Shown: one piece after another, positions 31,055 through 60,135 of the stretch
Position numbering within the stretch: position 1 is the stretch's first letter
Layout of the letters: every line of letters begins with the position of its first letter
Source: Chlorobiaceae bacterium
GTDB taxonomy: Bacteria; Bacteroidota; Chlorobiia; Chlorobiales; Chlorobiaceae
DNA: 64,000 nt
Direction of reading: 5' to 3'
NCBI GenBank assembly: GCA_013334865.1
Contig: JAAXWS010000005.1
Span: forward strand, 62,001-126,000
Program-made: the position numbers and the translations under genes
The notes under the pieces: generated by a model
The model's input: the letters and a program-made list of their open reading frames with translations, nothing else
The model's database searches: none
Told to the model about the DNA's origin: nothing

Positions 31055-31453
31055 GGGGATGACAGGCTTTCGACAGGATAGGTGTGAGATGTCGTTGCAC
31101 TCCGAGTTTCAGCATGGATGGACTCGTTAAAGAAGTCTATGTAACAATTAGATGCAGACGATTATTCGTATGCAATGGCTGCCTGATTAGCAAAAGTTAA
31201 TTAGACGCCATCGTCCCGCGGTGAATGCGCTTACTCTGCAGCCGCCGGATGGCATAACCCGCGCTTGAGCTTCGGTTCGCGCAAGTAAGCTTCATGCGTT
31301 CAGGCCCACTGGGGCGTATGAATACCTGTGGGGGATAAGGGACCGAACGTTGCCGGCGATGTAAACGGTCCACGAAAAAACAACCACCGGAGATGAGTGT
31401 GGTGACGGCTTCGATCAATGTTCTGGACGCGGGTTCGACTCCCGCCATCTCCA
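31055..31453 (+). ncRNA. ssrA: tmRNA (transfer-messenger RNA)
   Basis: Rescues stalled ribosomes and tags the nascent protein for proteolysis. The 5' end GGGGATGACAGGCTTTCGAC pairs with the 3' end CATCTCC to form the acceptor stem, and the T-arm GGTTCGACTCCCGCC is intact. The tag frame starts with the resume codon GCA at 31154 and reads ADDYSYAMAA, stop at 31184-31186; this is the tag I remember for Chlorobium tepidum. CCA is not encoded. The 3' end doubles as the phage integration site. Confidence 0.95.
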
Positions 31454-31455
31454 CT
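31420..31455. other. Probable prophage attachment site attL in ssrA 3' end
   Basis: A tyrosine integrase gene begins 175 bp after the tmRNA acceptor end in the same direction, and everything beyond is phage-like. The T-arm/acceptor region of tmRNA genes is a classic integrase target, and the gene is kept intact. The exact core cannot be set because the right-hand copy lies outside the window. Confidence 0.75.
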
Positions 31456-31557: not shown

Positions 31558-31631
31558 TCTACCAATAATAGGTAGATTCATTGGTAGATATACCAATCGG
31601 CGACGCCTTACCACCTTCGAGATATACCAAT
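31558..31631. repeat. Repeated TACCAAT sites before the integrase gene
   Basis: Four copies of the core TACCAAT or its complement: TCTACCAAT (31558-31566), ATTGGTAGA (31580-31588) and AGATATACCAAT at both 31586-31597 and 31620-31631. The last overlaps the integrase start codon. Probable arm-type integrase or Xis binding sites, or an autoregulatory operator. Confidence 0.6.
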
Positions 31632-32916
31632 GGCGAGAAAAATCCTTCCCCTATCAGCTCGGCGAGTTGAAACCATCAAACCCACCGACAAGACGCAAAC
31701 CATTTTCGACGGTGGCGGCCTTTTCCTCTTCATTCCTCCTCTACGGTACGATACATCTGGCAAGCCACTTCCTGCCTCAAAGCTCTGGCGGTTTAAGTAT
31801 ACCTTCAACGGTAAGTCTTGCATGATCTCCTTTGGCCCATATCCTGATGTCAGTTTGGAGGCGGCCCGAGAAAGGCGCTATAAGGCAAGGAACCTGCTTG
31901 CCAATGGTATCAATCCGATTGAGGAGAGAAAGCAGCGTGTCGCTGCCGATGCACGCTCTCAAGAGATTCAGGGGAACACCTTCGAACGGATAGCCCGGCA
32001 ATGGTTTGATATTGCAAAAACCGAATGGGTAGACGGTCATGCACGAACCGTATTGTCACGCATGGAACGAGACATCTTGCCGCCTCTTGGGAATCGATTG
32101 ATTTCCGAGATCACGACGCAGGATGTTCTGGCCGCTCTGAGATTGGTAGAGGCTCGTCAGGCTTATGAATCGGCTCACCGAATCAAGACAATCATCGGGC
32201 AGATTTTCAAGTTCGCCATCATCTCAAATATCCCCGGTGTTGAGAACAACCCAGCGCTCAATCTGAGCAAAGTCCTTAAGCAGCCCCAGAAGAAAAGCAT
32301 GGCGGCCATTCTGGAGCCAGAAAAGCTCGGGCGACTTCTTCGAGATATTGATGCTTATGCCGGCTCTCATATCGCTCGATGTGCTTTGCAGCTCGCTCCT
32401 ATGCTTTTCGTTCGACCAGGGGAGCTCCGGAACGCGAAATGGGAGGACATTGATCTGGACGCTGCAGTCTGGCTACTACCGATCGAGGATACGAAGCTGG
32501 TTCTCAAGGAGAAGGCACGTCGGAAAGGGCAGGTTCACACGGTCCCTCTGGCCCGGCAAGCCGTCGCTATTTTGCAAGAGCTGCAACCGTTCACTGGAAG
32601 AAGCAAGTATGTGTTTCCTGGGCGCGCGGCATCGAGGGTAATGTCGAACAACACGGTGAACCAGGCATTGCGGACGATGGGCTGGGATGCCGAGACCGTC
32701 ACTGGCCATGGTTTCCGCGCTACAGCCCGGACCATGCTTCACGAGACGTTGGGCTTTTCACCTGATGCGATTGAAGCCCAACTGGGGCATCGGGTCCCTG
32801 ACAGGTTGGGCGAGGCCTACAATCGCTCGAAGCACCTTGATGAGCGCCGTCGGATGATGCAAGCCTGGGCGGATTACCTGGATGGGTTGAAGGTTGGCGA
32901 TTATGACACGATATAA
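31630..32916 (+). CDS. int: Tyrosine-type prophage integrase (P4-like)
   Basis: Catalyses site-specific insertion and excision. 428 residues: N-terminal DUF4102-type arm-binding domain (~1-105; DGGGLFLFIPP, FGPYPDVSLEAARE), core-binding domain, and a C-terminal catalytic domain with Arg262 (VRPGELR), His360-x2-Arg363 (TGHGFRATA), His387 (LGHRV) and nucleophile Tyr397 (EAYNRS). All catalytic residues are present, so it looks active. It sits directly beside ssrA and defines the left prophage end. Confidence 0.95.
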   Translation: MARKILPLSARRVETIKPTDKTQTIFDGGGLFLFIPPLRYDTSGKPLPASKLWRFKYTFNGKSCMISFGPYPDVSLEAARERRYKARNLLANGINPIEERKQRVAADARSQEIQGNTFERIARQWFDIAKTEWVDGHARTVLSRMERDILPPLGNRLISEITTQDVLAALRLVEARQAYESAHRIKTIIGQIFKFAIISNIPGVENNPALNLSKVLKQPQKKSMAAILEPEKLGRLLRDIDAYAGSHIARCALQLAPMLFVRPGELRNAKWEDIDLDAAVWLLPIEDTKLVLKEKARRKGQVHTVPLARQAVAILQELQPFTGRSKYVFPGRAASRVMSNNTVNQALRTMGWDAETVTGHGFRATARTMLHETLGFSPDAIEAQLGHRVPDRLGEAYNRSKHLDERRRMMQAWADYLDGLKVGDYDTI

Positions 32917-33319: not shown

Positions 33320-35338
33320 ATGACAGAAAAGACATGCACGGTCAAAGTTCAGGGAGATCATATTAAAAAACTGACCTCAGCAAATCCGGAACATGCCTTG
33401 GCTGAGTTAATATGGAATGGTGTCGATGCTGATGCGAGTAATGTTGATGTGATAATTGAGGGGAATGCTCTTAGGGGGATAGAGTTAATAATTATTCGAG
33501 ATAATGGGACGGCATTTTCTTTACAAGATGCTGAAATATTTTTCTCGTCTTTGGGTGGTTCATGGAAATCTAAAAAAAATAAATCGAATAAGGGTAGGTT
33601 TTTACATGGTAAGGAAGGGCAAGGGCGATTTAAAGCGTTTGCTTTGGGGCGATATGTTGAATGGCATGTGAATTATAAGGGTAAAAAAGGAGATGGGAAT
33701 AGTCGTTTTATTATAACGGGCTACAGTGAGGATTTGCAAAGATTTACGATAAAAGAAGTTGAAAGTAATGACGCTAAGGTTCCTGGTGTTGTTGTAAAGA
33801 TTTATGATTTGAATAAGCAATTTAAGGTTTTTAAGTCTGGTAATATTATTGATAAGCTATTGCCTATATTTTGTTTGTATTTACAAAACTATCCTGATGT
33901 TAAAATAACTGTTGCAGGGGACGCTGTTGATGTGGCTAAAGCTGTAAAAAAATCGGTTTCATTTGAGCTTGATGCCGTGAGATATAAAGGCAAGAGTTAT
34001 TCTGTTGTGTTGGATTTAATTGAGTGGGTTGATATAGAGGTAAGGGATTTATGGTATTGTGATCAGGGATTGGTCCCTTTGCTTAAATATGATAAGCAGA
34101 TCAGGGGAATTGGTGATTATGGATTTTCTGCATATTTGAGGTCATCATTAATTGAGAGGATGAATGCTGAAAATGTGCTCGAGCTCGATGGTTTTGATGA
34201 GGTTATAAAGACATTGTCAGACTCGGCTATAAAAAAAATAAAAGAGTATTTTATTGAAAGAGCATTAGAAGATGGGCAGGAGCAGATTCGCAAATGGAAG
34301 ATTGATGAAATATATCCTTATAAGGAGGATGCGACAACACCAATAGAAGTGGCTGAGCGCCAAATGTTTGATATCGTGGCAGTTAAAATTGAAGAGAGTT
34401 TGCCGTCTCAAGATGGAAATAGTAAAAAAGAAAAGGCTTTTCAACTCCGTATGCTACGTCAAGTAGTTGAAAGCAGTCCAGATGCACTTCAAAAAATTAT
34501 TACAGAAGTCCTTAACTTGCCGGCGGATAGTCGCGAGGCGCTATCAGGCCTTCTTCAAGATATCTCTTTAACGGGAATGATAAATGCATCAAAGCTTGTT
34601 GCCGATAGGCTTAGATTTATTGTCGGATTAGAAGGAATATTGTTTGATGGAGATGGAAAAAAGACCTTAAAAGAACGCAGTCAGCTTCATAGAATGATTG
34701 CTGAAAATACGTGGGTATTTGGCCCAGAATTTACCGTCTCTGTTGATGATAAGTCGTTAACAGAAGTATTGCGAAAACATAGGTCATTATTGGGTTTAGA
34801 GCTTATAGTTGATGATGCTGTTAAAACAATAGACGGAAAGGTTGGGATAGTTGATCTAATGCTTTCGAGACAATTGCCGACGACTCGTGAGGATGAGCTT
34901 GAGCATCTTGTGATTGAACTGAAAGCGCCAAAAGTTAAGGTAGGGGAAGATGAGTGTGGGCAAATAAAAAAGTATGCTTATGCAGTTATTGCAGATGAGC
35001 GGTTTGCGTCCCTAAAAGTAAGGTGGAATTTCTGGGTCATTTCAAATGAGATGGATCAGTATGCTATTAATGAGACAACCCAGGAAGGGCGCCCGCAAGG
35101 TCTTTTGTATAAGAATAAGGAGGGGAATGTGATGATATGGGTTAAGACATGGTCCCAAATTATTAGAGAAAATAAGTATAGGCTTGAATTTGTTAGGGAT
35201 AAGCTGAATTATGATGTCGATAAAATAGATGGTGTGCAATATATGAGAAATACATATGCTAAATTTCTAAAAGGTGTTATAGTTGATGATGAAATGTTAG
35301 TCCCGAAAGATTCTGAAGATGTATTGATTGTGGATTAG
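33320..35338 (+). CDS. GHKL ATPase fused to a PD-(D/E)XK nuclease-like domain, candidate anti-phage protein
   Basis: 672 residues. The N-terminus is a GHKL (Hsp90/MutL/MORC-like) ATPase: N-box ELIWNGVDADA (Glu29, Asn33), DNG at 61-63, and a glycine lid with GKEGQGRFKAFALG (97-110). A middle helical region (~240-450) follows. The C-terminal ~190 residues contain a PD-(D/E)XK pattern: Asp512 (GIVDLML), Glu533-x-Lys535 (VIELKAP), then QIKKYAYAV, reminiscent of Shedu/DUF4263 nucleases. No signal peptide. Strongly AT-rich codon use unlike host or phage core genes indicates separate acquisition. The location beside a restriction system suggests phage defence; function is inference and I know no named system with exactly this build. 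Confidence 0.7.
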   Translation: MTEKTCTVKVQGDHIKKLTSANPEHALAELIWNGVDADASNVDVIIEGNALRGIELIIIRDNGTAFSLQDAEIFFSSLGGSWKSKKNKSNKGRFLHGKEGQGRFKAFALGRYVEWHVNYKGKKGDGNSRFIITGYSEDLQRFTIKEVESNDAKVPGVVVKIYDLNKQFKVFKSGNIIDKLLPIFCLYLQNYPDVKITVAGDAVDVAKAVKKSVSFELDAVRYKGKSYSVVLDLIEWVDIEVRDLWYCDQGLVPLLKYDKQIRGIGDYGFSAYLRSSLIERMNAENVLELDGFDEVIKTLSDSAIKKIKEYFIERALEDGQEQIRKWKIDEIYPYKEDATTPIEVAERQMFDIVAVKIEESLPSQDGNSKKEKAFQLRMLRQVVESSPDALQKIITEVLNLPADSREALSGLLQDISLTGMINASKLVADRLRFIVGLEGILFDGDGKKTLKERSQLHRMIAENTWVFGPEFTVSVDDKSLTEVLRKHRSLLGLELIVDDAVKTIDGKVGIVDLMLSRQLPTTREDELEHLVIELKAPKVKVGEDECGQIKKYAYAVIADERFASLKVRWNFWVISNEMDQYAINETTQEGRPQGLLYKNKEGNVMIWVKTWSQIIRENKYRLEFVRDKLNYDVDKIDGVQYMRNTYAKFLKGVIVDDEMLVPKDSEDVLIVD

Positions 35339-35580: not shown

Positions 35581-36321
35581 TTATCCTAATCGTGCTGCTT
35601 CTCCAGCAATATGACTTGCCAATGAGGTGACGAAGGTTTTGAGGCTTGTCATATCCGAGAGAACAGAGAACTTGCCACTAGTGACAGCATCTTTGGGGGT
35701 AGCAATGACCGATGCGGAGGTATAGAGCTGTTCTTGAACCAATTTCTGACAAAGCAGATCATACCTCTTTAGATATGAGGCTCCTTTAAACTCCTCGAAC
35801 AGAGGGAAATGTGGTGAGGCATCCCTCACTGGGGATAAGGACTCTGGTGCTTCTTCGACCAGCATTAACCAACCGACAAAAGGGTGAGGTTGCTTTCCGA
35901 AGGCTCCGTATCGATATGCCGTCCAAAAGTCATGGGCGGTTCCAATTGCTTCCTCTGTTCTATTATTAAAGTTGTTCCCAAATGAGGGACCAACCTGGCT
36001 TTTAAGTTCTATGGCAGCGATGAGTTGGCCTTTGGACATGACCAGCAAGTCCCATAGCTTGGTGGGCCGGAAGAAACCTGGCAAAGTTAGGGCTGCACGG
36101 TTTTGATGAATTTCGGCATTTGCAAGACCGTTTGCCTTTATGATGTCAAGAATTAAGGCGAGAAAGCCATCCATATTTTTCCCTGCCGTCACGCTGGCAC
36201 GTTCGCCCTGGTCGGCTTTTCCTGATTCTATCTGCTTTTGCCTTGCGGCTTCCCGGTTACCCCAGAATGCCTGGACGGATTCACAAGCTCTCCGTTCATA
36301 ATCGACGAGATCTAATGCCAC
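35581..36321 (-). CDS. Type II restriction endonuclease, PaeR7I/XhoI family
   Basis: 246 residues resembling R.PaeR7I, which cuts CTCGAG: N-terminal region with [11 protein letters not shown] (~43-53), then Asp91 (KLWDLLVM) and Glu105-x-Lys107 ([16 protein letters not shown]), a PD-(D/E)XK-type active site. It starts with GTG only 2 bp after the methyltransferase stop, so translation is coupled and methylation comes first. The target site is inferred from the family; CTCGAG does occur in this window (for example at 34178). Confidence 0.82.
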
Positions 36322-36323
36322 AG

Positions 36324-38057
36324 TTATTCTCCATTACCGCCAAGAGCGGATCGTTCGTTGTGATTCAAGCCGTACAATCGAAACACAGCCTTATTGCATG
36401 CTTCCAGATCAAGGGCTTGGGCTGCTTTTATCAGCTCAGTGCGTAAGTTCTCAGGAACGTTCTTCCAGTGAGGAATTCTTATGCGACGTAGATATTGCGC
36501 CTGAAATCTCAAGTAGCTACCTCGCATTTTTGTCGAATATGTCGAAACAAAAAGCTTCGATATTCTGGATAGAAGGACTGCCTGTAATGCTCTTAAATCC
36601 CATTCCTGAGCCACCACATAGTAGAGGTTATGGTGAGGATAGAAGATGCCTTCTTCAAAAACCACATGGGCTTCTCCTTTGATGTCAGGGATGAGCAGCT
36701 TAGGAGTCTTTGCTAATGACGGCCAGATCCTGTCAATGGTGCGGTACCATTTCCCGGGTGAATTTCGAACACAATGTCTTCTGGCTATGATATCCTTATG
36801 AGCGGCCAGGTATTTAGCAAGTCTTGGATAACTCTCCAGGGGGACCAACTTACCATCATCCATGAAAGGATTAATAAGCCCCTTGCCCTGCCATTCAATT
36901 TTCCCGGATCGAATATCTCTTGTTTCCACTAAGGGTAAAATCCGATCAGGCTCGATGTCGAATGAATGATGGGTACCAGTGAATATTTTATCAGCTCCCG
37001 TGGCCACGCCGATTCCAACCTTACATCCTGCTTGTTCCAGTGTGGGGAATTCAGACTCAAGGCGACGCAAGAGCTCCAATTGATCGGATGATTCGAGGAT
37101 CCATGGTTCAGCACCATTGGTGACATTGAAAACCTGTTGAATGGCAGAGTCATTATTCTGAAAAGGTTCCGCTGTAAGCCTTGTAGCCAATTGCTCAAGT
37201 ATTGATCGGTCAATTGCTGGTCGATGAGCAATACGTGTCATCTTTCCGGTCCCTTTGCGGATCACAGTGATGGCTGGGTAAGCCGATACTTCTGAATGGA
37301 ATGCATCAGTGCCAGTCATGTCGACATAGATGTTCAGGTGATACCCTCTTGATACCATCTCCCTGAGTGGTCCACCGTATCGATTTTTCATCCAACGATC
37401 GGCACAGATGAAGCCAAGATGACCGTTTGGGCTGAGCAGCTTGAGGGATCTTTCGATAAAGGGGATGTAGAGGTCTGCCCGGTCATAAAGTGTGGTGTAT
37501 AGCTGCCGATATCGGTTCAATACAGCCCCTGAAATAAGCTCCTGTCTTACATAAGGTGGATTGCCGACAACATAGTCAAATGAACCTGGTATGGACGCCA
37601 GAAGAAAGTCCCCTTGGTGTAGCCATGAGTCGACAAGTTTTTGCGCCTCGGTTTCTGCAATGCCTTCGGAGATCAGTTTATCGATCACCGCTTGACGAGT
37701 GGTGCTGAAACTGTGCTTGTGCAGTTCGACAGCAAAAACGGCCTTGCTCAGCTCCTTGATCAAGAGTGATTCTTGGCCGGCATGTTCTCGCCAAGATGAA
37801 ATCAGCCGGGTGATGATTGGAAGCAGGAAATCACCGTGGCCGCAGGATGGCTCCAAAATCCTCTGCTCGAACAGCCTTTTGTCAGTCGTATAGCCAGTCA
37901 GATCAAGAATGAAGTCGACCACCTCTTCACGAGTGAAGATTGCTCCTCGGGCTTCAGAAGAGCCATTTGAGGCTATGCGTTCGACAGCTGTCACAATTTC
38001 ATTTGACGTCTGAAGACTTCGTGGTACAAGAATCTTGTATTGAGAAGTAGTTGGCAT
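36324..38057 (-). CDS. N6-adenine DNA methyltransferase of the PaeR7I-type system
   Basis: Protects DNA against its partner nuclease, probably by methylating adenine in CTCGAG. 577 residues: AdoMet motif [15 protein letters not shown] (67-80), catalytic NPPYV (166-170), and a C-terminal target-recognition region. The gamma-type order of motifs matches M.PaeR7I-like enzymes. It lies upstream of the endonuclease in one transcription unit on the minus strand, against the direction of the neighbouring cargo genes. Confidence 0.87.
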
Positions 38058-38535: not shown

Positions 38536-38597
38536 TCTCATGAGCGCTTTGTAGTAAATACAGACTATCCTTGTAAATAACAGAAATGGAGCTCTTT

Positions 38598-38852
38598 ATG
38601 ACCAATAAAATCACTGGGCAGAAGGCGGCTAAAAACGCATCAAAGACATTGAAGAGCGCCTCGACAGGAAAAAACTCAAAAAGTGCAGCAGCAAGTGCAT
38701 TGTCACAAGTGGATTCACCCAAGAAACAGACAAGCAGCAAGGCCGCAACAGCAGCCTCAAAGACTTTAAGCGATGGTCGGACTAGTAAGGCCTCAAAATC
38801 AGCAGCTGGTAGTGCGCTTTCTCAAAAGTCAGGAAAGGGAGGGAAAAAATGA
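38598..38852 (+). CDS. Small Lys/Ser/Ala-rich two-repeat protein
   Basis: 84 residues from MTNKITGQKA; GGAG sits 7 nt before this ATG, favouring it over an ATG four codons earlier. The protein is two copies of a ~40-residue unit: KAAKNASKTLKSAS...SKSAAASALSQ and KAATAASKTLSDG...SKSAAGSALSQ. It is highly basic and low in complexity, without membrane segments, and could bind DNA or be disordered. Its stop overlaps the start of the HNH gene (ATGA), so the two are translated together. I recall similar small proteins in bacterial genomes but no known function. Confidence 0.65.
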   Translation: MTNKITGQKAAKNASKTLKSASTGKNSKSAAASALSQVDSPKKQTSSKAATAASKTLSDGRTSKASKSAAGSALSQKSGKGGKK

Positions 38853-39169
38853 GGAGCAGGAATACTAATTCGCATGGTGGGGCTTGGACAACATTACAAA
38901 TTATTTCGGTTTGGCAGAAAGCCGCTATCGTAAATGGGAAAGACCCAGATAAATTGCGAAAAGATTGTTGTGGGGCGTGGATTGAATTTTCAAAGCACGG
39001 CGAAACAATTAACAGTGGTAACGGTTGGGAAATCGATCATATAATACCTGTTGCGAAGGGGGGGACTGATAACTTGGAGAATCTTCACCCTTTGCAATGG
39101 CAAAATAATCGTGAAAAAGGCGATAGTGAGCGGCGTGGAGATTGGTTCTGCGCCGTTTCTTCTAAGTGA
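38849..39169 (+). CDS. HNH endonuclease
   Basis: 106 residues with a full HNH motif: WEIDHIIPVAKGGTDNLENL followed by HPLQWQNNREKGD. A strong ribosome binding site (GGGAGGG) lies within the end of the upstream repeat-protein gene, and the start overlaps its stop by 4 nt. Phage terminase-linked HNH proteins sit next to head genes; this one is instead paired with a small basic repeat protein in the cargo region, pointing to a defence, toxin or mobile role rather than packaging. Confidence 0.82.
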   Translation: MRSRNTNSHGGAWTTLQIISVWQKAAIVNGKDPDKLRKDCCGAWIEFSKHGETINSGNGWEIDHIIPVAKGGTDNLENLHPLQWQNNREKGDSERRGDWFCAVSSK

Positions 39170-39284: not shown

Positions 39285-40136
39285 ATGGGAAATTGTAAAT
39301 ATTGTGGTCAGTCAGCTGGATTATTGCGTTCTGAGCATAGAGAGTGTAAAGAAAAACATGAGCAGGAAGTGCGTTTGATTGAAAGCGGGAAGAGTCGGAT
39401 CACTCAAGAAGTCATTCGTGCAATTGAAAATAATGATTCTTATGATGCTTTGAATGACAATATTCTGAGAGTTGAGCGAGCAAGCGGGCTTTCTTCAGGT
39501 GATCGAAAGTGGCTGCTTATTGATGGGTGGGAAAAAGCCATTAATAAATTTCTTGATGATGGAGTGATTGATGATAGAGAAGAAAAGCGTTTGCTCGAAT
39601 TTTGTGATTATTTTGAGTTATCTAAAGATGATATTCAGCAGTGCGCTGGGTATGAAATGTTTGTAAAGGGTATGGTTTTGAGGGAGCTTATGAGCGGGAT
39701 TGTGCCAGATAGGATGATTATTAACGGTGCGTTACCTGTTAATCTTCAAAAAGGTGAGAAAGTGATTTGGTTTTTTAAAAATACTGATTATCTGGAAGAT
39801 AAGACAAAGCGGCAGTATGTTGGCGGGTCAAGTGGCGTAAGTGTTCGGATCATGCAGGGGGTTTATTATAGGGTTGGGGCATTTAAAGGATCGCCTGTCG
39901 AATCAATGGAGAGAGTTTATGTTGATAAGGGATATTTGATTATAACAAATAAGCATGTTTATTTCTCCGGGCAAAATAAAAGTTTTAGGGTGCCTTTTGC
40001 TAAAATTGTTTCTTTTACGCCATATAGTGATGGAATTGGATTGGTGAAGGAGGCGGCAAACCCGAAAATGCAATCATTTGTGACTGGGGATGGGTGGTTT
40101 TGCTATAATTTAGTGGTTAATGCATCTAGGTTATGA
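39285..40136 (+). CDS. Zinc-ribbon protein with PH/GRAM-like C-terminus, unknown function
   Basis: 283 residues. The first ~25 hold a short zinc-binding cluster (CKYCGQ at 4-9, then HRECKEKH). Residues ~30-130 are helical and acidic (GWEKAINKFLDDGVIDDREE), somewhat TerB-like. The C-terminal ~120 residues are beta-rich with VDKGYLIITNKHVYFSGQ and FAKIVSFTPYSDG, the pattern of bacterial PH/GRAM-like domains that bind membranes or proteins. No membrane segment. AT-rich, in the cargo region. Domain readings are by eye and tentative. Confidence 0.65.
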   Translation: MGNCKYCGQSAGLLRSEHRECKEKHEQEVRLIESGKSRITQEVIRAIENNDSYDALNDNILRVERASGLSSGDRKWLLIDGWEKAINKFLDDGVIDDREEKRLLEFCDYFELSKDDIQQCAGYEMFVKGMVLRELMSGIVPDRMIINGALPVNLQKGEKVIWFFKNTDYLEDKTKRQYVGGSSGVSVRIMQGVYYRVGAFKGSPVESMERVYVDKGYLIITNKHVYFSGQNKSFRVPFAKIVSFTPYSDGIGLVKEAANPKMQSFVTGDGWFCYNLVVNASRL

Positions 40137-40329
40137 TTTTCAGATCACCACTTCCAGCGTCCTAAAATTCATTTTTCGGCGTGCTCTGGCTACACGTATC
40201 CTAAGATAAATACATGGTATTTTTTCTTTATAGCTAAGCGTTTTATGGTCTTTTGCTTCCTGTTGGTGCTCCGATAATACGTATTTTATGCTTAGAAGGT
40301 TTTGTCAATTATTAACAAGAAGGTGCAAG

Positions 40330-40959
40330 ATGAAAATAACCAGGATGTTTGGTATAGTCATAATCTTCTTTGCATTGTTTGTGACTATCGCCCGATCGGC
40401 TGTAGCAGAGGATGTCGTTTATACCTATAGCATGAGTAAGGAAAGCGAAGTGATGAGAATTAAGAAAAATGCCATTTTTGAGGCATCTATAACTCCATTA
40501 TGGAATAAGGCTTATAAAAAAGGTGGATTTCTTGGGCTCGGTATAACAGAGACAGGGGGGACTGATGGGTGCAATTCCTTTGTCTTAATGGTGAAGAATA
40601 ATAGCGACAAAGATATTACTATAGTGTGGGATAAAACTTTGTTTATTGATAACTCGCAAACAAGGGGGACGTTCATGTTCGAAGGGGTTAGGTATATAGA
40701 GCGTGATGCCCCAAAGCCTTCAGATCTGGTGCTTTCCGGAGGATCATTATCAAAGGAAATCTATCCTAATATTTTAGTTTATTACGTAAGTGGTCAGTAT
40801 GGTGGATGGAGACATAAGCCTATGAGAGATGGCTATTATGGGGTATATCTTGCTGCCGTTGTGGATGGAAAGCCTATCAATGAAAAATTGATGATCAAGA
40901 TACAAAAGGAAGTCTTGCCTTCTGCCGAGACAAAAAAAAATGATGAGGCTCGGCAATGA
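40330..40959 (+). CDS. Secreted/periplasmic hypothetical protein (209 aa)
   Basis: The ATG at 40330 is chosen because it gives a clean signal peptide (MKITRMFGIVIIFFALFVTI, cleavage near ARSAVAED) with AAGAAGGTG upstream. The mature part looks like a beta-sandwich (SFVLMVKNNSDKDITIVWDK, MFEGVRYIERDAPKPSD). Not recognised. The AT-rich gene lies in the cargo region with another exported protein after it; a role at the cell surface such as altering phage entry is possible but unsupported. Confidence 0.6.
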   Translation: MKITRMFGIVIIFFALFVTIARSAVAEDVVYTYSMSKESEVMRIKKNAIFEASITPLWNKAYKKGGFLGLGITETGGTDGCNSFVLMVKNNSDKDITIVWDKTLFIDNSQTRGTFMFEGVRYIERDAPKPSDLVLSGGSLSKEIYPNILVYYVSGQYGGWRHKPMRDGYYGVYLAAVVDGKPINEKLMIKIQKEVLPSAETKKNDEARQ

Positions 40960-41136
40960 CCAAGCTTTTGTATTTTACACGGTCTTCCTTATTACCCGCA
41001 TGCATACACCAAGCATATTGAGTTTTGCCACGGCGGCCAGTTGTAACCAAAAGGCCGGATTATTGCACGGGCTTTATTTTTTTGGGATGATCGGTAACTT
41101 TGTATGAGTTTCGGAGATGAAACGAAAAACGATTAA

Positions 41137-41976
41137 GTGATGAAAAGGATAACAATCGCAGGTCTTGTGTGCTTATTTGTATCAGCAGCCTCAATGACAT
41201 GTTTTTCCGCAAGCCGCAGGGAAGAGCGTAAGCCAAAAATTCTAGAACAGAGCCAAGCGCTACTTGCCTTTGTCAATAAGTATTCGACCATAAAAATGAA
41301 AAAGGGCGAGTTCGAGACTACAGAGCAATACAAGGAAAGACTTGATAGGTCTGGATTTACAGGAAAACATTTTGCTGTTAATATCTCGCCTAAAGGTGCT
41401 CTTGAGTATCATTATGACGCAGATACAAGGGTATTAAGGATATCAGTAAAAAATGCTCAAGACGTGCCTCTTTACAGTGACGATATTCGGGATATGGACT
41501 ACAATGCGCTTTTTTTAATCAGTAGCGGAAGTAAAAAAACAGGTGGGTATATTGGCCAAAATGCTTACGGAGCAAAAGCGTACGTTGATAAGATCAGAAA
41601 AGACCAAGTATATGTTGTTGCAACAAACATCAAAAAAACGCAACTGAGTGATTGGCAGAATTATGATGAATCGGAAAGGCGAAGGCTGGGAATGCTTGAC
41701 TATGATGTCTCTGCTGATCCTGAAACAGCAAAACAAATAATTGAGAAAGGAATTTGTATCTTGACAATAACGACGGAATTCTATTACGGCCAGCAATCTT
41801 ATATACCGACTAAACGCTGGTATCAAGACGCAACAATATCATCACCAACTGAGCTTACAAAAGAAGCAAAGATACTTCCTGCAAGGGTAAAATGTATTGA
41901 GGTAATAAATCCCGTGACCGGAAGCAGGTGTCAGGTGTTTTCAGATAAAGACGATATGCCGACAATAGAGAAATGA
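41137..41976 (+). CDS. Secreted/periplasmic hypothetical protein (279 aa)
   Basis: Signal peptide at residues 1-25 (ITIAGLVCLFVSAASMTCFSA); the Cys inside is not a good lipobox. The mature protein begins with a charged helix (LLAFVNKYSTIKMKKGEFET) and continues alpha/beta, with one short motif, FETTEQYKERLDR, of the type seen at the start of many small periplasmic proteins. No family recognised. Followed by a bidirectional terminator. Second of two exported proteins in the cargo block. Confidence 0.6.
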   Translation: MMKRITIAGLVCLFVSAASMTCFSASRREERKPKILEQSQALLAFVNKYSTIKMKKGEFETTEQYKERLDRSGFTGKHFAVNISPKGALEYHYDADTRVLRISVKNAQDVPLYSDDIRDMDYNALFLISSGSKKTGGYIGQNAYGAKAYVDKIRKDQVYVVATNIKKTQLSDWQNYDESERRRLGMLDYDVSADPETAKQIIEKGICILTITTEFYYGQQSYIPTKRWYQDATISSPTELTKEAKILPARVKCIEVINPVTGSRCQVFSDKDDMPTIEK

Positions 41977-42080: not shown

Positions 42081-42446
42081 CTACTCATTGTCAATGCAGG
42101 CTTGGCAAACCCGGATCGCATCGGTGTATCTATTTTTTGAGGTATAGATTATACGTAGGCGCTCGTAAGGGTGACTGCCATCAAAAAGATCAGTAATATT
42201 TTGTTCGTAAAGCTTTATGGCTTCTATGTCGTTTCCAGACTTCTCATATTCGATGCCCTGCAAGTTTCGATCAACAAGTATATCCTCGATTGCCTGAGCT
42301 GCTTCAGAAGCGGCCAGCATTTCGTCAAGGTTCTCAGTCTCATTTATTTTAGCTTGTAAGCCGTGCCATGCAACTGATAATGGTATTTGTTTAGACTGTA
42401 AGCTCTGTATTAAATCAGCAGCAGTTTTCATCTCGGGTGTTGCCAT
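42081..42446 (-). CDS. Small helical protein translated with the repressor (121 aa)
   Basis: Starts on the last base of the repressor stop codon (TAATG, 1-nt overlap) and shares its terminator, so it is made in the lysogen. It looks all-helical with a tetratricopeptide-like pair of helices in the second half (NLQGIEYEKSGNDIEAIKLYEQN, then YERLRIIYTSKNRYTDAIRV). No known family; accessory genes in this position often affect superinfection or repressor control, but nothing here proves it. Confidence 0.68.
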   Translation of the reverse strand: MATPEMKTAADLIQSLQSKQIPLSVAWHGLQAKINETENLDEMLAASEAAQAIEDILVDRNLQGIEYEKSGNDIEAIKLYEQNITDLFDGSHPYERLRIIYTSKNRYTDAIRVCQACIDNE

Positions 42447-43231
42447 TATACAGCCCTCCTTATTACCCAGATCACCACGCCAAGTGTCCGGAAGTCCATT
42501 TCCGTTGTGATCTGCGTGATTGGGTAATTGAGGTTCTCAGGAGCAAGGTAGACGGTGTCCTTCTCAATGAGCAACCGCTTCACTGTCTGCTCTCCATTGA
42601 TTGAGGCAATCACGATGCTTCGATTCTCAGGTTCAATTGCATGATCCACAATCAGCACGTCTCCTTCTTCTATCCCTGCTCCGACCATACTATCGCCTGT
42701 TACTGTGAGTACGTAGGTATCTGCCGGGTGCTTCACCAGAAATGCCGGCAAAGCAATTTTGTCGTCCTGGCCCGTTGAATCAGTCGGTAATCCGGCAGCG
42801 ATCCGGTGGGTGTAATGTGGTACCTCGATGTTTTCAATTCCTAATACAAAACTTGCCGGCGCAGCCTTGATTGCTGTCAGCGTTCCAACTTGCGGGATTT
42901 TCACCATACCCTGATCGATCAGGTACTGGATTTTCTCAGCCTCACCCTTCAGCAGTTCAGAGCTTCTTGTCGCCACTTCTTCTGCAGGACGCAAATCCCT
43001 CATCCACATCGGGCCCTCGCCTGTGAGGTACCACCCGATATTTACGCCGAGTGGAACCAATTTAGCAACCAGATTCGCAGCTCTTTTTTTGCTGCTCATG
43101 TTGATGTAGTTGGTTAGTGACTTTGTGTCTATCTGCAATAATTCAGCATACTTATCCTGAGTAAGCCCGGAGTTTTCGACCAGCCGCCGCAAGTTATCGG
43201 CAACCCCTTTATCATCGAGTAGTTGTTTCAT
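42446..43231 (-). CDS. CI-like phage repressor, HTH plus S24 self-cleavage domain
   Basis: Maintains lysogeny. 261 residues: N-terminal helix-turn-helix (LTQDKYAELLQIDTKSLTNY, ~23-42), linker, then a LexA/UmuD-type peptidase domain with nucleophile Ser181 (VTGDSMVGAG), Lys218 (QTVKRL), and a scissile-like Ala146-Gly147 in HRIAAGLPTD. This set predicts RecA-stimulated self-cleavage and SOS induction. It is divergent from the early genes across a 131-bp operator region. Confidence 0.92.
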   Translation of the reverse strand: MKQLLDDKGVADNLRRLVENSGLTQDKYAELLQIDTKSLTNYINMSSKKRAANLVAKLVPLGVNIGWYLTGEGPMWMRDLRPAEEVATRSSELLKGEAEKIQYLIDQGMVKIPQVGTLTAIKAAPASFVLGIENIEVPHYTHRIAAGLPTDSTGQDDKIALPAFLVKHPADTYVLTVTGDSMVGAGIEEGDVLIVDHAIEPENRSIVIASINGEQTVKRLLIEKDTVYLAPENLNYPITQITTEMDFRTLGVVIWVIRRAV

Positions 43232-48964: not shown

Positions 48965-50278
48965 GTGGATAAACCCGAAAAAGCAGCCAAGATGAAAATC
49001 ACTGACATCCAGCTCAACCCAGGCAATCCCAGGCTCATCAAAGACGACAAGTTCAAGAAGCTCTGCCAGAGCATCAAGGACTTTCCCAGGATGATGGAAC
49101 TGCGGCCAATTATCATCGATGACGATGGCATCATCCTTGGCGGCAACATGCGATACCAGGCATTAAAACGCCTCGGGTATACCGATGTTCCGGATGAATG
49201 GGTAAAACGCGCCAGCGAGTTGACAGAGGATCAGAAGCGCGAGTTTATCGTCAAGGACAACGTTGGGTTTGGCGAGTGGGATTGGGATATGCTGGCAAAC
49301 GAGTTCGATGCCGACCTCCTCGAGCAGTGGGGCCTTGACGTTCCTGAAATGGAAGGACCCGAAGAACTTCCCGAAGCCAAAGAGGACGACTACGAGATCC
49401 CCAGCAAGATCGATACCGACATCGTACCGGGCGACCTTATCGAGATCGGCCACCACCGATTAATCTGTGGAGACAGCACCAGTACCGACACATACGAAAA
49501 GCTGTTTCAGGGCGAAACTGCAGACTTAATCGTTACCGATCCGCCTTACAACGTCAACTACACCGGCGGCACCGACGAGAAGCTGAAGATCGCCAACGAC
49601 AATATGAACAGCGAAGATTTCTTCAGCTTTCTCCTCGATTCGTTTTCTGCTGCAGCTTCCTTCCTGAAAGCAGGAGGGGCGGTCTACGTCTGGCATGCCG
49701 ATAATGAAGGCATCAGTTTCAGACGTGCCCTGATCGAGAATGGTATCGATCTGAAACAGTGTTTGATCTGGGTGAAAAACTCAATGGTCATCGGGCGCCA
49801 GGACTACCAATGGAGGCACGAGCCATGCCTCTATGGCTGGAAGTCTGGCGCTGCACACTACTTCACCGACGACCGGACAAACACCACGGTGATCGACGAC
49901 AAGGTCGACCTGAAAAAGCTCAGCAAGCCTGAGATGCTGAAGATGCTGCAGGACATATTCTCGGAAAAGACTTCGACATCGATCATCTACTGCGACAAGC
50001 CGAGCAAAAACGATGTGCATCCGACCATGAAACCGGTGCAGCTGATCGCGCATCTTATCGGTAACAGCAGCAAAAAGGGGCAGATCGTCGCCGATGGCTT
50101 CGGCGGATCTGGCACCACCATGGTGGCCGCTCACCAGCTTGGGCGCAAAGCTTACTTGGTCGAGCTGGACCCGAAATACTGTCAGGTGATCGTCGACCGG
50201 ATGATCAACCTGGACCCGTCGATCGAAGTGAAACGCAATGGCCAGCCATGGCGACAGGTGGCAAGGAAGGCCGGATGA
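48965..50278 (+). CDS. DNA methyltransferase with N-terminal ParB-like domain
   Basis: 437 residues. Residues ~10-75 form a ParB/sulfiredoxin-like nuclease-fold domain (IQLNPGNPR, DDDGIILGGNMRYQALKRLG); residues ~155-430 are an N4/N6 methyltransferase with catalytic DPPY (192-195) first and AdoMet motif FGGSGTT last, i.e. beta class. Common in phages, where methylation guards phage DNA against restriction or marks it for packaging. Starts at GTG 48965; an ATG at 48992 is the alternative. It is distinct from the PaeR7I-type methyltransferase. Confidence 0.88.
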   Translation: MDKPEKAAKMKITDIQLNPGNPRLIKDDKFKKLCQSIKDFPRMMELRPIIIDDDGIILGGNMRYQALKRLGYTDVPDEWVKRASELTEDQKREFIVKDNVGFGEWDWDMLANEFDADLLEQWGLDVPEMEGPEELPEAKEDDYEIPSKIDTDIVPGDLIEIGHHRLICGDSTSTDTYEKLFQGETADLIVTDPPYNVNYTGGTDEKLKIANDNMNSEDFFSFLLDSFSAAASFLKAGGAVYVWHADNEGISFRRALIENGIDLKQCLIWVKNSMVIGRQDYQWRHEPCLYGWKSGAAHYFTDDRTNTTVIDDKVDLKKLSKPEMLKMLQDIFSEKTSTSIIYCDKPSKNDVHPTMKPVQLIAHLIGNSSKKGQIVADGFGGSGTTMVAAHQLGRKAYLVELDPKYCQVIVDRMINLDPSIEVKRNGQPWRQVARKAG

Positions 50279-51128: not shown

Positions 51129-51569
51129 ATGGCCAGGCGCCCAACAAAATCCGACACCAGAAAAAAGGCTCTCCTCGCAGCACTCGAGAAGAGCCTCGGT
51201 GTCGTATCGCCCGCCTGCCAGGCAACAGGTATAAACCGTTCCACGTTTTATGAGTGGTATGACTTGGATGCAGAATTCAAGAAAGCCGTCGACGAGATGG
51301 GAGAACTTGCCCTTGATTTTACCGAAACGAAGCTGCTCAAGCGCATCAAAGACGAGAGCGACACGGCAATCATCTTCTACCTCAAGACGAAGGGTAAACG
51401 CCGCGGGTACATCGAGCGCCAGGAGGTGACCGGCGCCGACGGAAAGGACCTGGGCGGCAGCAGCGGGACTGTGACGATTAGGACCAGAGAGGAGCTTATC
51501 GCAGAGGCGAGAGAATGGGGATTCACGGAACAGGAAATCTTCGGTGACAACAGCAGCAGCACAACATAG
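51129..51569 (+). CDS. Terminase small subunit
   Basis: 146 residues. N-terminal HTH (KSLGVVSPACQATGINRSTFYEWYDLDAEFK, ~22-50) that would recognise the packaging site, a central helical oligomerisation part, and an acidic C-terminus ending TEQEIFGDNSSST. Sits directly before and overlapping the large subunit by 26 bp. Confidence 0.82.
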   Translation: MARRPTKSDTRKKALLAALEKSLGVVSPACQATGINRSTFYEWYDLDAEFKKAVDEMGELALDFTETKLLKRIKDESDTAIIFYLKTKGKRRGYIERQEVTGADGKDLGGSSGTVTIRTREELIAEAREWGFTEQEIFGDNSSSTT

Positions 51570-53058
51570 AGCGGACATTATCGCAAACAGGCGCTTCGAG
51601 CTCAAAAAGAAGGCCAGGATCCTCGAGGCTCGCGAGAATTTCAGCGCCTACCGTCGGCTGATAAACTCGAAGCTCCTCGATGGATGGTTCCGCCAGGCGA
51701 TCGAGGCGGACATGCAGCAGTTCTGGGAAGACTTCAAAGCCGGCCAGCGCCCGCAGCTCATCCTGACAACGCCGCCACAGCATGGTAAGAGCATCCTCAT
51801 CATCGACTTCATAAGCTGGATCGCCGGACAAGACCCATCTCTCCGGAAAATCTTTTCCAGTTTCTCGGAACGGCTGGGCGTTCGGGCAAACCTTCGCCTG
51901 CAGCGCATCTATGACAGCGATCGGTACCGCGAGATATTCCCTGATACGGCGCTATCCGGGAAAGCCGAAGCGCAGGATGGGAAGTACCTCCGAAACAAAG
52001 ACGTCCTCGAGTACGTCGGGCATATGGGATATTTTCGCAACACGACCGTCGGCGGCCCGATTACCGGCGAGAGCCTCGACATCTGCATCATTGACGACCC
52101 CGTAAAAGGTCGCGAAGAGGCCAACTCGCCAACCATGAGGGAAAAGGTATGGCTCTGGTATACCGACGACGTCCTTACGCGTTTCTCGGACAACGGCGCC
52201 CTGCTCATGATCATGACTCGTTGGCACACCGATGACCTCGCCGGCAGGATCATAGAGACGGACGAAGAGGTTGTCGTCAAGGCATACCCAGCGATCGACG
52301 AGACGGACACCCGCAGGGTTTCAGATGGAAGCCTTTTCCCGGAGCTCAAAAGCTACGGATTCCTCATGTCACGGCGCCGTCAGATGCGCATTACAAGCTG
52401 GCAGTCTCTATACCAGTGCACGCCCATCATTGACGAGGGCGATATGTTCCGACCTGACAACATCCGGATCATCGACACCCTGCCGAGCGGTACCAGGATA
52501 AAGCAGCGCATTCGATATTGGGACAAGGCCGGCACCGACGGAGGAGGAGCGTATACCGCAGGCACCCAACTCCTTCTGACCGACGAAGACACAGTCATCA
52601 TCGTCGACGTTGTGCGGGACCAGGTGTCCGCCGGCAGACGGGAAAAGCTCATCAAGCAGACCGCAGAGATTGACGGGACCGTCGTCCACATCTGGATCGA
52701 GCAGGAGCCCGGCAGCGGGGGTAAGGAAAGCGCCGAGAACACGATCAAGAACCTCATAGGCTACACGGCGAAGGCCGAACCCGTCACCGGCAGCAAGGCC
52801 ACCAGAGCCGAGCCGTTCGCGGCATATGTCGAAGCCGGAAACGTCAGCATGCTCAAAGCCCCATGGAACAAGCCATTCCTGGATGAGATGCGCCTGTTTC
52901 CGAACGGGAAATTTAAGGACCAGATCGATGCCGCCAGCGGAGCGTTCAATAAGCTCACCCTGGGCAAGCGCACCGACGGCCTGATCGAATGGTACGAGCG
53001 CAAGGCAGCACAGCGAGAAGCACAAAAAGAAGCGGCCCGAAACGGAGCTGCAGCATGA
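51544..53058 (+). CDS. Terminase large subunit (packaging ATPase-nuclease)
   Basis: Drives DNA into the procapsid and cuts it. 504 residues from a GTG start: Walker A TTPPQHGKS (75-83), Walker B-type CIIDDPV (~178), coupling motif MIMTRWHTDDLAG, and a C-terminal RNase-H-type nuclease beginning RYWDKAGTDGG (~318). All expected motifs are present. Confidence 0.93.
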   Translation: MTTAAAQHRADIIANRRFELKKKARILEARENFSAYRRLINSKLLDGWFRQAIEADMQQFWEDFKAGQRPQLILTTPPQHGKSILIIDFISWIAGQDPSLRKIFSSFSERLGVRANLRLQRIYDSDRYREIFPDTALSGKAEAQDGKYLRNKDVLEYVGHMGYFRNTTVGGPITGESLDICIIDDPVKGREEANSPTMREKVWLWYTDDVLTRFSDNGALLMIMTRWHTDDLAGRIIETDEEVVVKAYPAIDETDTRRVSDGSLFPELKSYGFLMSRRRQMRITSWQSLYQCTPIIDEGDMFRPDNIRIIDTLPSGTRIKQRIRYWDKAGTDGGGAYTAGTQLLLTDEDTVIIVDVVRDQVSAGRREKLIKQTAEIDGTVVHIWIEQEPGSGGKESAENTIKNLIGYTAKAEPVTGSKATRAEPFAAYVEAGNVSMLKAPWNKPFLDEMRLFPNGKFKDQIDAASGAFNKLTLGKRTDGLIEWYERKAAQREAQKEAARNGAAA

Positions 53059-53084
53059 AACACAAAACAATGAACATCTGACCA

Positions 53085-54599
53085 ATGGCAGACATTCGCA
53101 CCCCAATCAGTCCCGACCTTCTGAGCACCCGTATCGTCGGCGGGCGTTTCGTAGACACCAACGCAACCCCAGAACAGCAGGCCGCGTCTTTCTTCGGTCC
53201 GATGGAATCGCTTCAGCCGATAGCGCCGCCAGCAGCTGCAGGGCGCCAGATGGACTACCCGGTCGGTATGAACATGTTCATTCGGCCAAGGCAGCACGAC
53301 GGGCGTGGTGTGGATTACGATCAGCTCCGGGCGCTGTCGTACAACTACGATGTCCTGCGCCTGCTCATCGAGACACGAAAAGATCAGATGGCAAAGATGA
53401 AGTTTCAGTTCCAGATCCGGGGAACCCAGAAGCGTGACGGCAGATGCGAGGAGGCTGAGAACTTCCTCCGGTTTCCTCAGCGCCGTGACGACGACCGGCC
53501 CGATGCACCACGCCCGGAACTTGACTGGTTTGACTGGAGCCGGATGATTGATGAGGATATGCTCGTCATCGACGCGCCAACTATCTGCCCACGAATGACC
53601 AGGGGCGGAAAGCTCTTCTCGCTCGACATCATCGACGGTGCCACGATCAAGCGCAACGTCAACGCATGGGGCAGAACTCCTGCCCCGCCAGCGGTAGCTT
53701 ATCAGCAGATCATCAAAGGGATGCAGGCCACAGACTACACTGCCGACGAGCTGATTTACAGGCCACGAAACCGACTGTCCAGCAAAGTCTATGGATACAG
53801 CCCTGTCGAACAGATCGTCATGAGGATCAATACCGCTTTACGGCGCGACCTGTCAGTGCAGCAGTATTACACGGAAGGCAGCACCCCCGATCTGCTCTTC
53901 GGATGTCCTATCGACTGGCAGCCGGACCAGATTGATCGTTTCGAGATGCGATTCAACGCGTTGCTCAGTGGCGACACAGCACAGCGCCGGCAGGCGAGGT
54001 TCTTGCCTGGCGGAGTGCAGCCGTACAACACGAAGGACATCATTCTCAAGGACGACTTTGATGAGTGGATGGCGAGAATTGCCTGCTTCGCTTTCTCGGT
54101 CAGCCCGACGGCGTTTGTCAAGCAAGTCAACCGCGCCACGGCTGAGACATCGCAAGAGGCTGCGATCACCGAAGGCCTTCAGCCGCTCATGCAGTGGAAA
54201 AAGAGCCTGGTCGACCACATCGTCGCTCACTACGTGGGATTCCCGGACATCGAGCTCGTATGGATGCCGGACACCGACCCGAACCCGCTCGAAGGCTCAC
54301 AGATTCGCTACAACACAGCACAGGCCGAAGCGATCGAGATCAACCAAACCGGCGTCATGGACATCAACGAGGCCCGAATCGCCAGAGGCCTCGAACCGCT
54401 CACCCCGGCACAGATGGCCGAACGCATGGCTTTGCTCGCACCACCTCCGGATCCGGCACCTGTTGACTCGAACCTGCAGCAGGGAACCGGCAAGCCTGCC
54501 AACAATGAACCATCGCAGGTAGGAAAGCGCTACGGTTCGCTGCAAAAAAAAAAGACCTATCCAGTAAGCCTCGACCTCGCAGGGGCGTCGATGCGCTGA
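53085..54599 (+). CDS. Phage portal protein
   Basis: 504 residues of the HK97/SPP1-type portal class: N-terminal wing (YDVLRLLIETRKDQMAKMKF), a central crown/stem part (LIYRPRNRLSSKVYGYSPVEQ), and C-terminal segment TGVMDINEARIARGLEPL. It forms the 12-mer ring through which DNA passes. Near the 3' end is a run of ten A (54544-54553) that can shift ribosomes to the -1 frame, which is open through the next gene. Confidence 0.87.
   Translation: MADIRTPISPDLLSTRIVGGRFVDTNATPEQQAASFFGPMESLQPIAPPAAAGRQMDYPVGMNMFIRPRQHDGRGVDYDQLRALSYNYDVLRLLIETRKDQMAKMKFQFQIRGTQKRDGRCEEAENFLRFPQRRDDDRPDAPRPELDWFDWSRMIDEDMLVIDAPTICPRMTRGGKLFSLDIIDGATIKRNVNAWGRTPAPPAVAYQQIIKGMQATDYTADELIYRPRNRLSSKVYGYSPVEQIVMRINTALRRDLSVQQYYTEGSTPDLLFGCPIDWQPDQIDRFEMRFNALLSGDTAQRRQARFLPGGVQPYNTKDIILKDDFDEWMARIACFAFSVSPTAFVKQVNRATAETSQEAAITEGLQPLMQWKKSLVDHIVAHYVGFPDIELVWMPDTDPNPLEGSQIRYNTAQAEAIEINQTGVMDINEARIARGLEPLTPAQMAERMALLAPPPDPAPVDSNLQQGTGKPANNEPSQVGKRYGSLQKKKTYPVSLDLAGASMR
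54543..54554 (+). other. Slippery A-run: candidate -1 frameshift site in the portal gene
   Basis: Zero-frame codons are CAA AAA AAA AAG, containing the dnaX-type heptamer A AAA AAG. The -1 frame is open from 54509 to 55339 with no stop, so a slip here gives a portal-MuF fusion (…KKKDLSSKPRPRRGVDALRR…). A homopolymer sequencing error would look the same. Confidence 0.55.
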
Positions 54600-54607
54600 G
54601 GCGCGGT

Positions 54608-55339
54608 ATGGATGCGGAGGTGGCCAGCTACCTCGCGGAACAGGCGGGTGGCATTGCTGACGAAGTTGCAAGTCTCTTCGAAGAATGGGAAGCTGGTGAA
54701 GCTGCAGAGCTGATCGCCGAAGTCAGCATCGATTTCACCAGCCTCGCCGATGATGTTGTCAGCTACCTCACCAAAGCAGCAAAGATCGGTGCCAAGGAGG
54801 TGGTAGCACAGATCAGGCTCGACGACAAGGACGCCACTAAGCTGGCCTTCACCGCAGCCGAGGACTACGCGCGAGATCGAGCAGCCGAGATGGTCGGAAT
54901 GAAGTGGGTGGACGGCGAGCTGGTGACCAACCCCAATGCAGAGTGGGCGATTACCGATAGTACCCGCGACGTGCTCGAGGCCTTGGTCCAGGACGCCATA
55001 GATAACGGTATCGGTACAAAAGAGCTTCGAGACAACATCATCGAAAGCACTGCGTTCAGCCCTGAGCGAGCTGAGATGATAGCCCGAACGGAGATCATCA
55101 ATGCATACGAGGGCGGTGGTCGGGCGACAGCAGACCAGGCCAAAGAGATTGGGCTGGACATGGTGAAGGATTGGTTGACGAGTGGGGAAGAGAGCACCTG
55201 CGACATCTGCCAGGAGAACGCGGATGCCGGCACCCTTGAGCTGGATGAAGAGTTCCCAAGTGGAGATCAGCACCCGGCAGCTCATCCGAGATGTGAGTGC
55301 TGTTGCATTTATCACGAGCGAGAAGCTGGGAATGAGTGA
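54608..55339 (+). CDS. Minor head protein, SPP1 gp7/MuF-like
   Basis: 243 residues, starting 8 bp after the portal stop with TGAGG as a modest ribosome binding site. The helical body and the C-terminal motif ARTEIINAYEGG ... STCDICQENADAG ... HPAAHPRCECCC are those of the MuF/gp7 family, which sits in the capsid close to the portal and is often injected with DNA. May also be made as a C-terminal extension of portal by frameshifting. Confidence 0.85.
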   Translation: MDAEVASYLAEQAGGIADEVASLFEEWEAGEAAELIAEVSIDFTSLADDVVSYLTKAAKIGAKEVVAQIRLDDKDATKLAFTAAEDYARDRAAEMVGMKWVDGELVTNPNAEWAITDSTRDVLEALVQDAIDNGIGTKELRDNIIESTAFSPERAEMIARTEIINAYEGGGRATADQAKEIGLDMVKDWLTSGEESTCDICQENADAGTLELDEEFPSGDQHPAAHPRCECCCIYHEREAGNE

Positions 55340-55359
55340 TTGAGGATAAATTCCAACAC

Positions 55360-55388
55360 AGCCCGGACGACCTCCGGGCTTTCTTTTT
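55360..55388 (+). terminator. Rho-independent terminator after the minor head gene
   Basis: 8-bp stem AGCCCGGA / TCCGGGCT, 5-nt loop, then TTCTTTTT. It splits the morphogenesis genes into two transcription units; a new promoter must lie between 55389 and 55511. Confidence 0.9.
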
Positions 55389-55427
55389 CCCCGGAAACCC
55401 GCATCAGCACTATAAATACCTTCGCAA

Positions 55428-55467
55428 AATCTACCCCCCGAAAGTATCTGCATGGTCACGGTAAGTT
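55428..55467 (+). repeat. Bipartite 40-bp repeat, copy 2
   Basis: Same element as at 48925-48964: identical 18-bp and 11-bp blocks with an unconserved 11-bp spacer. It lies between a terminator and the protease gene, where a promoter is needed; TATAAAT at 55411-55417 is just upstream. Confidence 0.75.
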
Positions 55468-55511
55468 ATTCGAAAGAGTAAATCAACCGTTTGAACCAAA
55501 AGGCAGAGACA

Positions 55512-56762: not shown

Positions 56763-56790
56763 AAAGTTCAACCCAAAACCTACTCGAAAA

Positions 56791-58329: not shown

Positions 58330-58355
58330 GCGCAACGCGAAGAACATTACAGAAC

Positions 58356-58382
58356 TGCCCCGGCCCGGTAAAGGTCGGGGCA
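58356..58382 (+). terminator. Hairpin after the major capsid gene
   Basis: Stem TGCCCCG / CGGGGCA extended by three inner pairs (one G-U), followed by a weak TAATTAT tail. Probably a partial terminator or mRNA-stabilising hairpin that keeps capsid expression above that of downstream genes. Confidence 0.6.
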
Positions 58383-58395
58383 TAATTATCGAATC

Positions 58396-58686
58396 ATGAG
58401 CACCATCAACGTAAAGTTTCCTGAAGGCCTATCCGGAGTGTCGGTCGGCAACATTCAGTATGCACCACTCAAAGAGGACCGTATCATAGCCGTCCCTGTG
58501 GAAGTGAAAGACGCATTCTTGGCTTTCGGCTGTCTTGTCGTAGGCGAGAATATCCCTGCCGAAGCTGAAAAACCCCAGGTAGTCGATGTTCCTGTCGATG
58601 CTCCTGCTGACACGGCAACGTTAGAGGACCAGGAAAAAGCAGCCACGACAAAAGGTGGTTCAGCAAAACCAGAAAAGAATAAGTAA
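58396..58686 (+). CDS. Small head-region protein (96 aa)
   Basis: Beta-strand N-terminal half (INVKFPEGLSGVSVGNIQYA) and a disordered acidic/Lys-rich tail ending KPEKNK. Located between capsid and connector genes, the usual place of a small head-decoration or connector-associated protein. Function not recognised. Confidence 0.65.
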   Translation: MSTINVKFPEGLSGVSVGNIQYAPLKEDRIIAVPVEVKDAFLAFGCLVVGENIPAEAEKPQVVDVPVDAPADTATLEDQEKAATTKGGSAKPEKNK

Positions 58687-58689
58687 CAG

Positions 58690-60124: not shown

Positions 60125-60135
60125 CGAATACAACT

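Follow-up and report, generated by a model that had tools for sequence, protein, structure and literature searches.

The gene at positions 33,320–35,338 of the analyzed DNA raises the question of whether a prophage carries a previously undescribed kind of defence protein. The DNA, hereafter the window, is the whole stretch of 64,000 nucleotides from a Chlorobiaceae contig, and its host, a green sulfur bacterium, encodes the FMO bacteriochlorophyll protein (PF02327, E 2e-223). The first-pass annotation had read the gene as a GHKL ATPase fused to a PD-(D/E)XK nuclease, carried as AT-rich prophage cargo next to a restriction system. The coding sequence runs uninterrupted from ATG to stop, as read from the ORF, and is organized as follows.

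33320..35338, plus strand: CDS of 672 amino acids, GHKL ATPase – S5/transducer – helical middle region – PD-(D/E)XK nuclease (paraMORC3/VcSduA-like), assigned from the ORF, Pfam, fold and full-length homologues
33377..33700, plus strand: GHKL ATP-binding region (residues about 20–127), with the N-box E29/N33, D61-N-G63 and the lid H96-G-K-E-G-x-G-R103; motif residues invariant in the aligned homologues
33767..34150, plus strand: putative S5-like transducer region (residues about 150–277), from the secondary structure of the model and the length of the Foldseek alignments
34199..34670, plus strand: helical middle region (residues about 294–450), from the model and partly of low confidence
34673..35206, plus strand: PD-(D/E)XK nuclease domain (residues about 452–629), with E452, D512, E533-x-K535, Q548 and W611, from invariant residues, fold and profile comparisons

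The N-terminal ATPase signature is confirmed by a match to the Pfam family HATPase_c_3 over residues 23–124 (E 3.6e-10, above the curated cut-off), and E29, N33, D61/G63 and G97–R103 occupy the places that the motifs require. In the C-terminal part, HSDR_N_2 matches residues 525–557, around E533-x-K535, below the Pfam threshold. The protein also matches PHROG 6203, a family of unknown function, with an E-value of 3e-64. The BbrUII/HgiDII model NF050001 aligns to the ATPase half only (residues 26–205, E 4e-9), and its 35.7 bits stay short of the 550 bits set as the cut-off for a whole-protein match. The Tiamat (TmtA) model gives a weak match that is confined to residues 14–94.

Full-length homologues with 29–47% identity to the window protein were aligned in sets of 20 and 34 members. 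In both alignments the residues E29, W32, N33, D36, D61, G63, H96-G97, G100, G102 and R103 are invariant in the N-terminal part, and E452, D512, E533, K535, Q548, Y552 and W569 in the C-terminal part. The invariance of the catalytic residues across these homologues indicates that the motifs are not a product of chance, and its presence in both parts indicates that both halves of the protein are under strong constraint.

A structural model was computed with AlphaFold2 from an alignment of the window protein with sequences from genome contigs and viral contigs. The mean pLDDT is 78.6, dropping to 42–65 in the middle region at about residues 380–430, and the pTM of 0.55 makes the relative placement of the domains in the whole-protein model unreliable. 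A Foldseek search identifies the N-terminal half as a GHKL domain with a transducer of the MutL/MORC/Hsp90 type. The alignments to MutL, MORC3/4 and TRAP1 extend over about 350–440 columns and thus exceed the ATPase domain alone, which suggests that an S5-fold domain follows the GHKL domain. The C-terminal domain modelled alone has a mean pLDDT of 75.8 and a pTM of 0.72. No PDB structure matches it below an E-value of 0.001 in Foldseek, and a sequence search of the PDB with the profile of the domain matched no solved chain. The top-ranking folds belong almost without exception to PD-(D/E)XK enzymes: the EndoMS-type structure 2vld in first place (E 0.005), MspJI, 8ps5, FokI and Bse634I. The DNA-bound SduA of E. 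coli (8ps5) is fourth by its E-value, a modest 0.011 (probability 0.97), and its query-length TM-score of 0.43 is the highest among the 50 matches listed. Structure prediction thus agrees with the halves originally proposed, and D512, E533 and K535 are found, invariant, at the positions assigned to them in the first-pass annotation.

The prophage setting of the gene is equally supported, with the following features in the window.

31055..31454, plus strand: tmRNA gene, the presumed integration site (gene detection)
31630..32916, plus strand: tyrosine integrase of the prophage (Pfam)
35581..36321, minus strand: XhoI/PaeR7I-type restriction endonuclease (PF04555, E 7e-103; PDLC03540, E 4e-122)
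36324..38057, minus strand: type II N6-adenine DNA methyltransferase, partner of the XhoI-type enzyme (PDLC03313, E 4e-254)
42446–43231: S24-type repressor (Pfam)
51544–63998: terminase, portal, major-head and tape-measure ORFs, identified by eye

The 672-residue gene adjoins the integrase, just inside the element, and has a GC content of 36–39%; the chromosomal part of the window lies mostly at 55–65%. A second att copy of the tmRNA end was sought with a 23-mer, allowing two mismatches, and the tmRNA itself was the sole match. The adjoining restriction system is likewise real, and its endonuclease and methylase form a complete restriction–modification (R-M) system, presumably independent of the 672-residue gene. 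Several other prophage genes were observed. At 38586–39169 lies a small protein rich in Lys, Ser and Ala with a repeated KSAAGSALSQ motif, the stop codon of which overlaps the start of an HNH gene (HNH, E 3e-7). Three AT-rich ORFs at 39285–41976 (283, 223 and 279 residues) match no family above the cut-off and are possible further cargo; the 283-residue ORF matches GRAM weakly and is rich in Cys at its N-terminus. A gene at 48965–50278 appears by eye to fuse a ParB/Spo0J-like N-terminal domain to a DNA N4/N6-methylase.

The proposal that the protein is undescribed, with no system known to share its exact single-protein design, does not survive comparison with the literature. The paraMORC3 proteins, described in 2008, combine GHKL and S5 domains with a C-terminal restriction-fold nuclease bearing E-D-ExK, and their genes are sporadically distributed and partly standalone (Iyer, Abhiman & Aravind 2008, PMC2292703). 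Compared by that description, the window protein displays the intact GHKL motifs, the S5 domain and the C-terminal E452, D512 and E533-x-K535, and no architectural difference was found. In the same work, members of the MORC family proper carry the motif GhXhhpXXRhl in the S5 domain, and paraMORCs are defined as being without it.

The closest characterized relative by architecture is VcSduA, from the VSP-II island of Vibrio cholerae WASA, whose defence activity was shown in 2025. It consists of a GHKL ATPase and a PD-(D/E)xK nuclease (named DUF4263), and was linked to paraMORC3 and to Shedu type I-D (PMC12137116), the definition of the latter being taken here as given in that paper. VcSduA defends E. 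coli from Drexlerviridae and also acts against vibriophage X29, the ATPase mutant E27A and the nuclease mutant K557A each abolish defence, and the robust protection at every tested multiplicity of infection was read as direct restriction with host survival; homologues occur in about 1.2% of genomes (PMC12137116). By its published description, VcSduA resembles the window protein in being a single protein with an N-terminal GHKL domain that contains motifs I–IV, a clamp-like middle region and a C-terminal PD-(D/E)xK domain, and in being carried by a mobile island. The catalytic Glu has nearly the same position (E27 and E29, respectively), and K557 corresponds to K535. The variants E29A and K535A suggested in the first-pass annotation are, by motif, the published loss-of-defence mutants of VcSduA. 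The two proteins differ in the spacing from the catalytic Glu to the Lys, which is 530 in VcSduA but 506 in the window protein and 499–518 in its aligned homologues; from this spacing, the window protein may belong to a neighbouring or sister branch of VcSduA. They also differ in host and carrier, which for the window protein are a green sulfur bacterium and a tmRNA-integrated prophage.

Other known systems are less similar. Canonical Shedu SduA (DUF4263/SduA_C) appears to share the C-terminal nuclease fold and has the residue order E..D..ExK..Q and the single-protein design in common, but its solved full-length chains have about 380–410 residues as against 672, and the window protein differs in its GHKL-S5 N-terminal half and in a C-terminal domain that is negative for PF14082. 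The MORC, MutL and BbrUII-HgiDII GHKL proteins have the ATPase region in common with the window protein but not its nuclease part. The Tiamat model, with a length of 1486, has nothing alike beyond its short N-terminal match. The possibility noted at the outset, that homologues might belong to a characterized system, largely applies as far as architecture and family are concerned. The family, in which a single anti-phage protein joins an ATP-driven clamp to a nuclease domain, is widespread and already described, the window protein is an ordinary though good example of it, and it opens no new mechanism class.

The origin of the nuclease domain is less clear-cut. The Pfam Shedu model (PF14082) matches none of 20 members at E≤0.1, nor the window protein at E≤1, and the PADLOC SduA models match 3 of 34 members (best E 2e-4). 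In hmmscan, by contrast, HSDR_N_2 matches 16 of the 20. In profile–profile comparisons, the C-terminal domain matches HSDR_N_2 with 95.4% over 74 columns, a set of 21 SduA_C members with 88.8% over 136 columns, and Mrr with 28.2%. Neither the reversed profile nor any of 60 column shuffles for each approached the HSDR_N_2, SduA_C or Mrr scores. The solved Shedu chains 8ti8, 8ti9 and 8ps4 are all picked up by the SduA_C profile, which is therefore a fair yardstick. When a second SduA_C alignment was used (20 members, without flanking residues), the match to the C-terminal domain fell to 37% over 66 columns, so that the profile link to Shedu depends on how the alignment is constructed. One alternative that follows is a GHKL/PD-(D/E)XK lineage whose nuclease is nearer to the HsdR-N or EndoMS type, convergent with Shedu rather than a type of it. 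Both the higher scores of HSDR_N_2 in hmmscan and profile comparison and the first rank of 2vld among the fold matches favor this scenario. Against it, the SduA of E. coli has the top query-normalized TM-score listed together with its high probability, the order E..D..ExK..Q is common to the domain and the SduA_C set, and the SduA_C alignment runs from the N-terminal part of the domain through the catalytic to the C-terminal part, whereas that of HSDR_N_2 is limited to the central core. The HSDR_N_2 core is common to many nucleases of the PD-(D/E)XK type. We regard the non-Shedu origin as unlikely, although it is the alternative that survives best; the structure and the less stable profile comparison are supportive of a kinship with the Shedu nuclease but do not settle it. 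It is less probable still that the window lineage is a sister of VcSduA with a nuclease from an HsdR-N/EndoMS-like ancestor, and that single-protein GHKL and PD-(D/E)XK defence arose more than once; if true, the window lineage would deserve a type of its own. Family members are missed by PF14082 and mostly by the PADLOC SduA matches, and a dedicated HMM would recover them; in RefSeq they are named 'ATP-binding protein'.

Homologues of the window protein are sporadic in its relatives and recurrent on mobile elements. Among 61 genomes (its own and 60 relatives) the own genome alone contains a full-length match, and 6 of 395 genomes across the phylum, the own genome included, match at E≤1e-10. 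A single-sequence query of viral and genome contigs gave few or no matches, and an alignment query succeeded, finding homologues on 39 IMG/VR contigs. Further homologues are present in 46 plasmid records, in 11 of 5,426 complete E. coli genomes and in a pair of Pasteurella phages; the one phage examined more closely has it among its tail genes. In the one E. coli genome examined, the homologue belongs to a P4-like satellite located at ssrA, where psu and int flank it; this site is known in such satellites as a reservoir hotspot of anti-phage systems (Rousset et al., PMC9122126). A homologue on a Phaeobacter plasmid overlaps a type ISP R-M gene by 4 bp (L009:3076–9989), and a coupled system of the two may exist in that plasmid lineage. 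Other plasmid homologues neighbor Drt2 and an LlaMI-type R-M system, a DEAD-box helicase and an abortive-infection (Abi) protein, or an N-6 methylase. The defence-type neighbors vary by lineage. When 105 neighbor proteins were scanned for known families, methylases and helicases came up alongside an RT-UG5-type gene, each at few loci; these counts describe occurrence rather than enrichment. Each neighbor family recurs in at most 4 of 34 homologue clusters, the two commonest being phage-regulator-like proteins. The gene therefore behaves as a self-contained cargo unit, and is a single-gene system without a recurring partner gene among the 34 clusters.

Taken with the architecture, these data make it probable that the 672-residue product of this prophage cargo gene is a single-gene anti-phage nuclease of the paraMORC3/VcSduA kind, resembling Shedu type I-D. 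By analogy with VcSduA, which protects with a similar layout, and given that its homologues are cargo of mobile elements, the protein likely defends against phages. Its residues and folds fit the most likely mechanism, an ATP-gated dimeric clamp. The protein would dimerize and, on binding ATP, would shut its GHKL gates together with the clamp formed by the S5 and middle regions, enclosing either incoming DNA or an intermediate of the phage bound to DNA. Turnover of ATP, with E29 as the general base, would then position or license the paired C-terminal PD-(D/E)XK domains, which could cut the clamped DNA through E452, D512, E533, K535 and Q548 and so keep the lysogen safe from other phages. Both the closure of the dimer on DNA and the control of cutting by ATP are steps that we infer; ATP gating of the nuclease is also the hypothesis of the VcSduA authors (PMC12137116).

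The position of the gene, 243 bp from the stop of the XhoI-type endonuclease, allows for a different function, that of an accessory subunit to the adjoining R-M system, an ATP-dependent helper cutting or remodelling DNA in its vicinity. Roles in R-M have been proposed for MORC-like GHKL proteins (Iyer et al. 2008, PMC2292703), and homologues elsewhere lie in or beside R-M sets, as does the one overlapping the type ISP gene. However, the endonuclease and methylase are complete as a pair and lie convergently on the opposite strand, the R-M types beside homologues vary by lineage with no partner family in more than 4 of 34 clusters, and VcSduA acts alone in E. coli (PMC12137116). This reading was rejected on the lack of recurrent neighbors, and we consider it very unlikely; a helper role toward R-M or helicase genes is possible in some lineages, since some homologues touch such genes. 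Slimmer still is the chance that the gene serves the phage as a recombination, superinfection or DNA-processing nuclease rather than defence as such. In favor of this, the gene is frequent in prophages and phages, at times among tail genes; against it, the gene is found equally on plasmids and bacterial contigs, sits in a satellite cargo hotspot in E. coli, and has no full-length match in the 60 other relatives' genomes, as cargo would behave.

With the single-gene anti-phage nuclease as the preferred reading, the locus documents a GHKL-nuclease protein of defence type in the prophage of a green sulfur bacterium; phages, plasmids and a P4-like satellite turn out to carry the family repeatedly. 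Some homologues (L017, L070, L071 and the plasmid copies H3 and H4) are broken by frameshifts or, in H3, by an IS5-type insertion, which points to frequent decay of the cargo gene.

GHKL matches in two relatives (L004 and L005) were discarded as homologues because their full frames (L147 and L146) are C5-methylase-linked GHKL proteins that lack this nuclease domain. The corresponding operons (L146:2793–7762 and L147:3279–8016), one of which is from the genus of the window's host, comprise a C5-methylase, a GHKL/histidine-kinase-like protein and a response-regulator-like protein, with an additional Vsr-like nuclease in L146, and apparently resemble the two-component-like R-M/paraMORC operons of PMC8011034. 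A distant member of the family from Bacteroidota (25% identity; L148:5153–8862) is seemingly carried by an integrative element, and adjoins two genes that by eye resemble an AbiEi/AbiEii pair.
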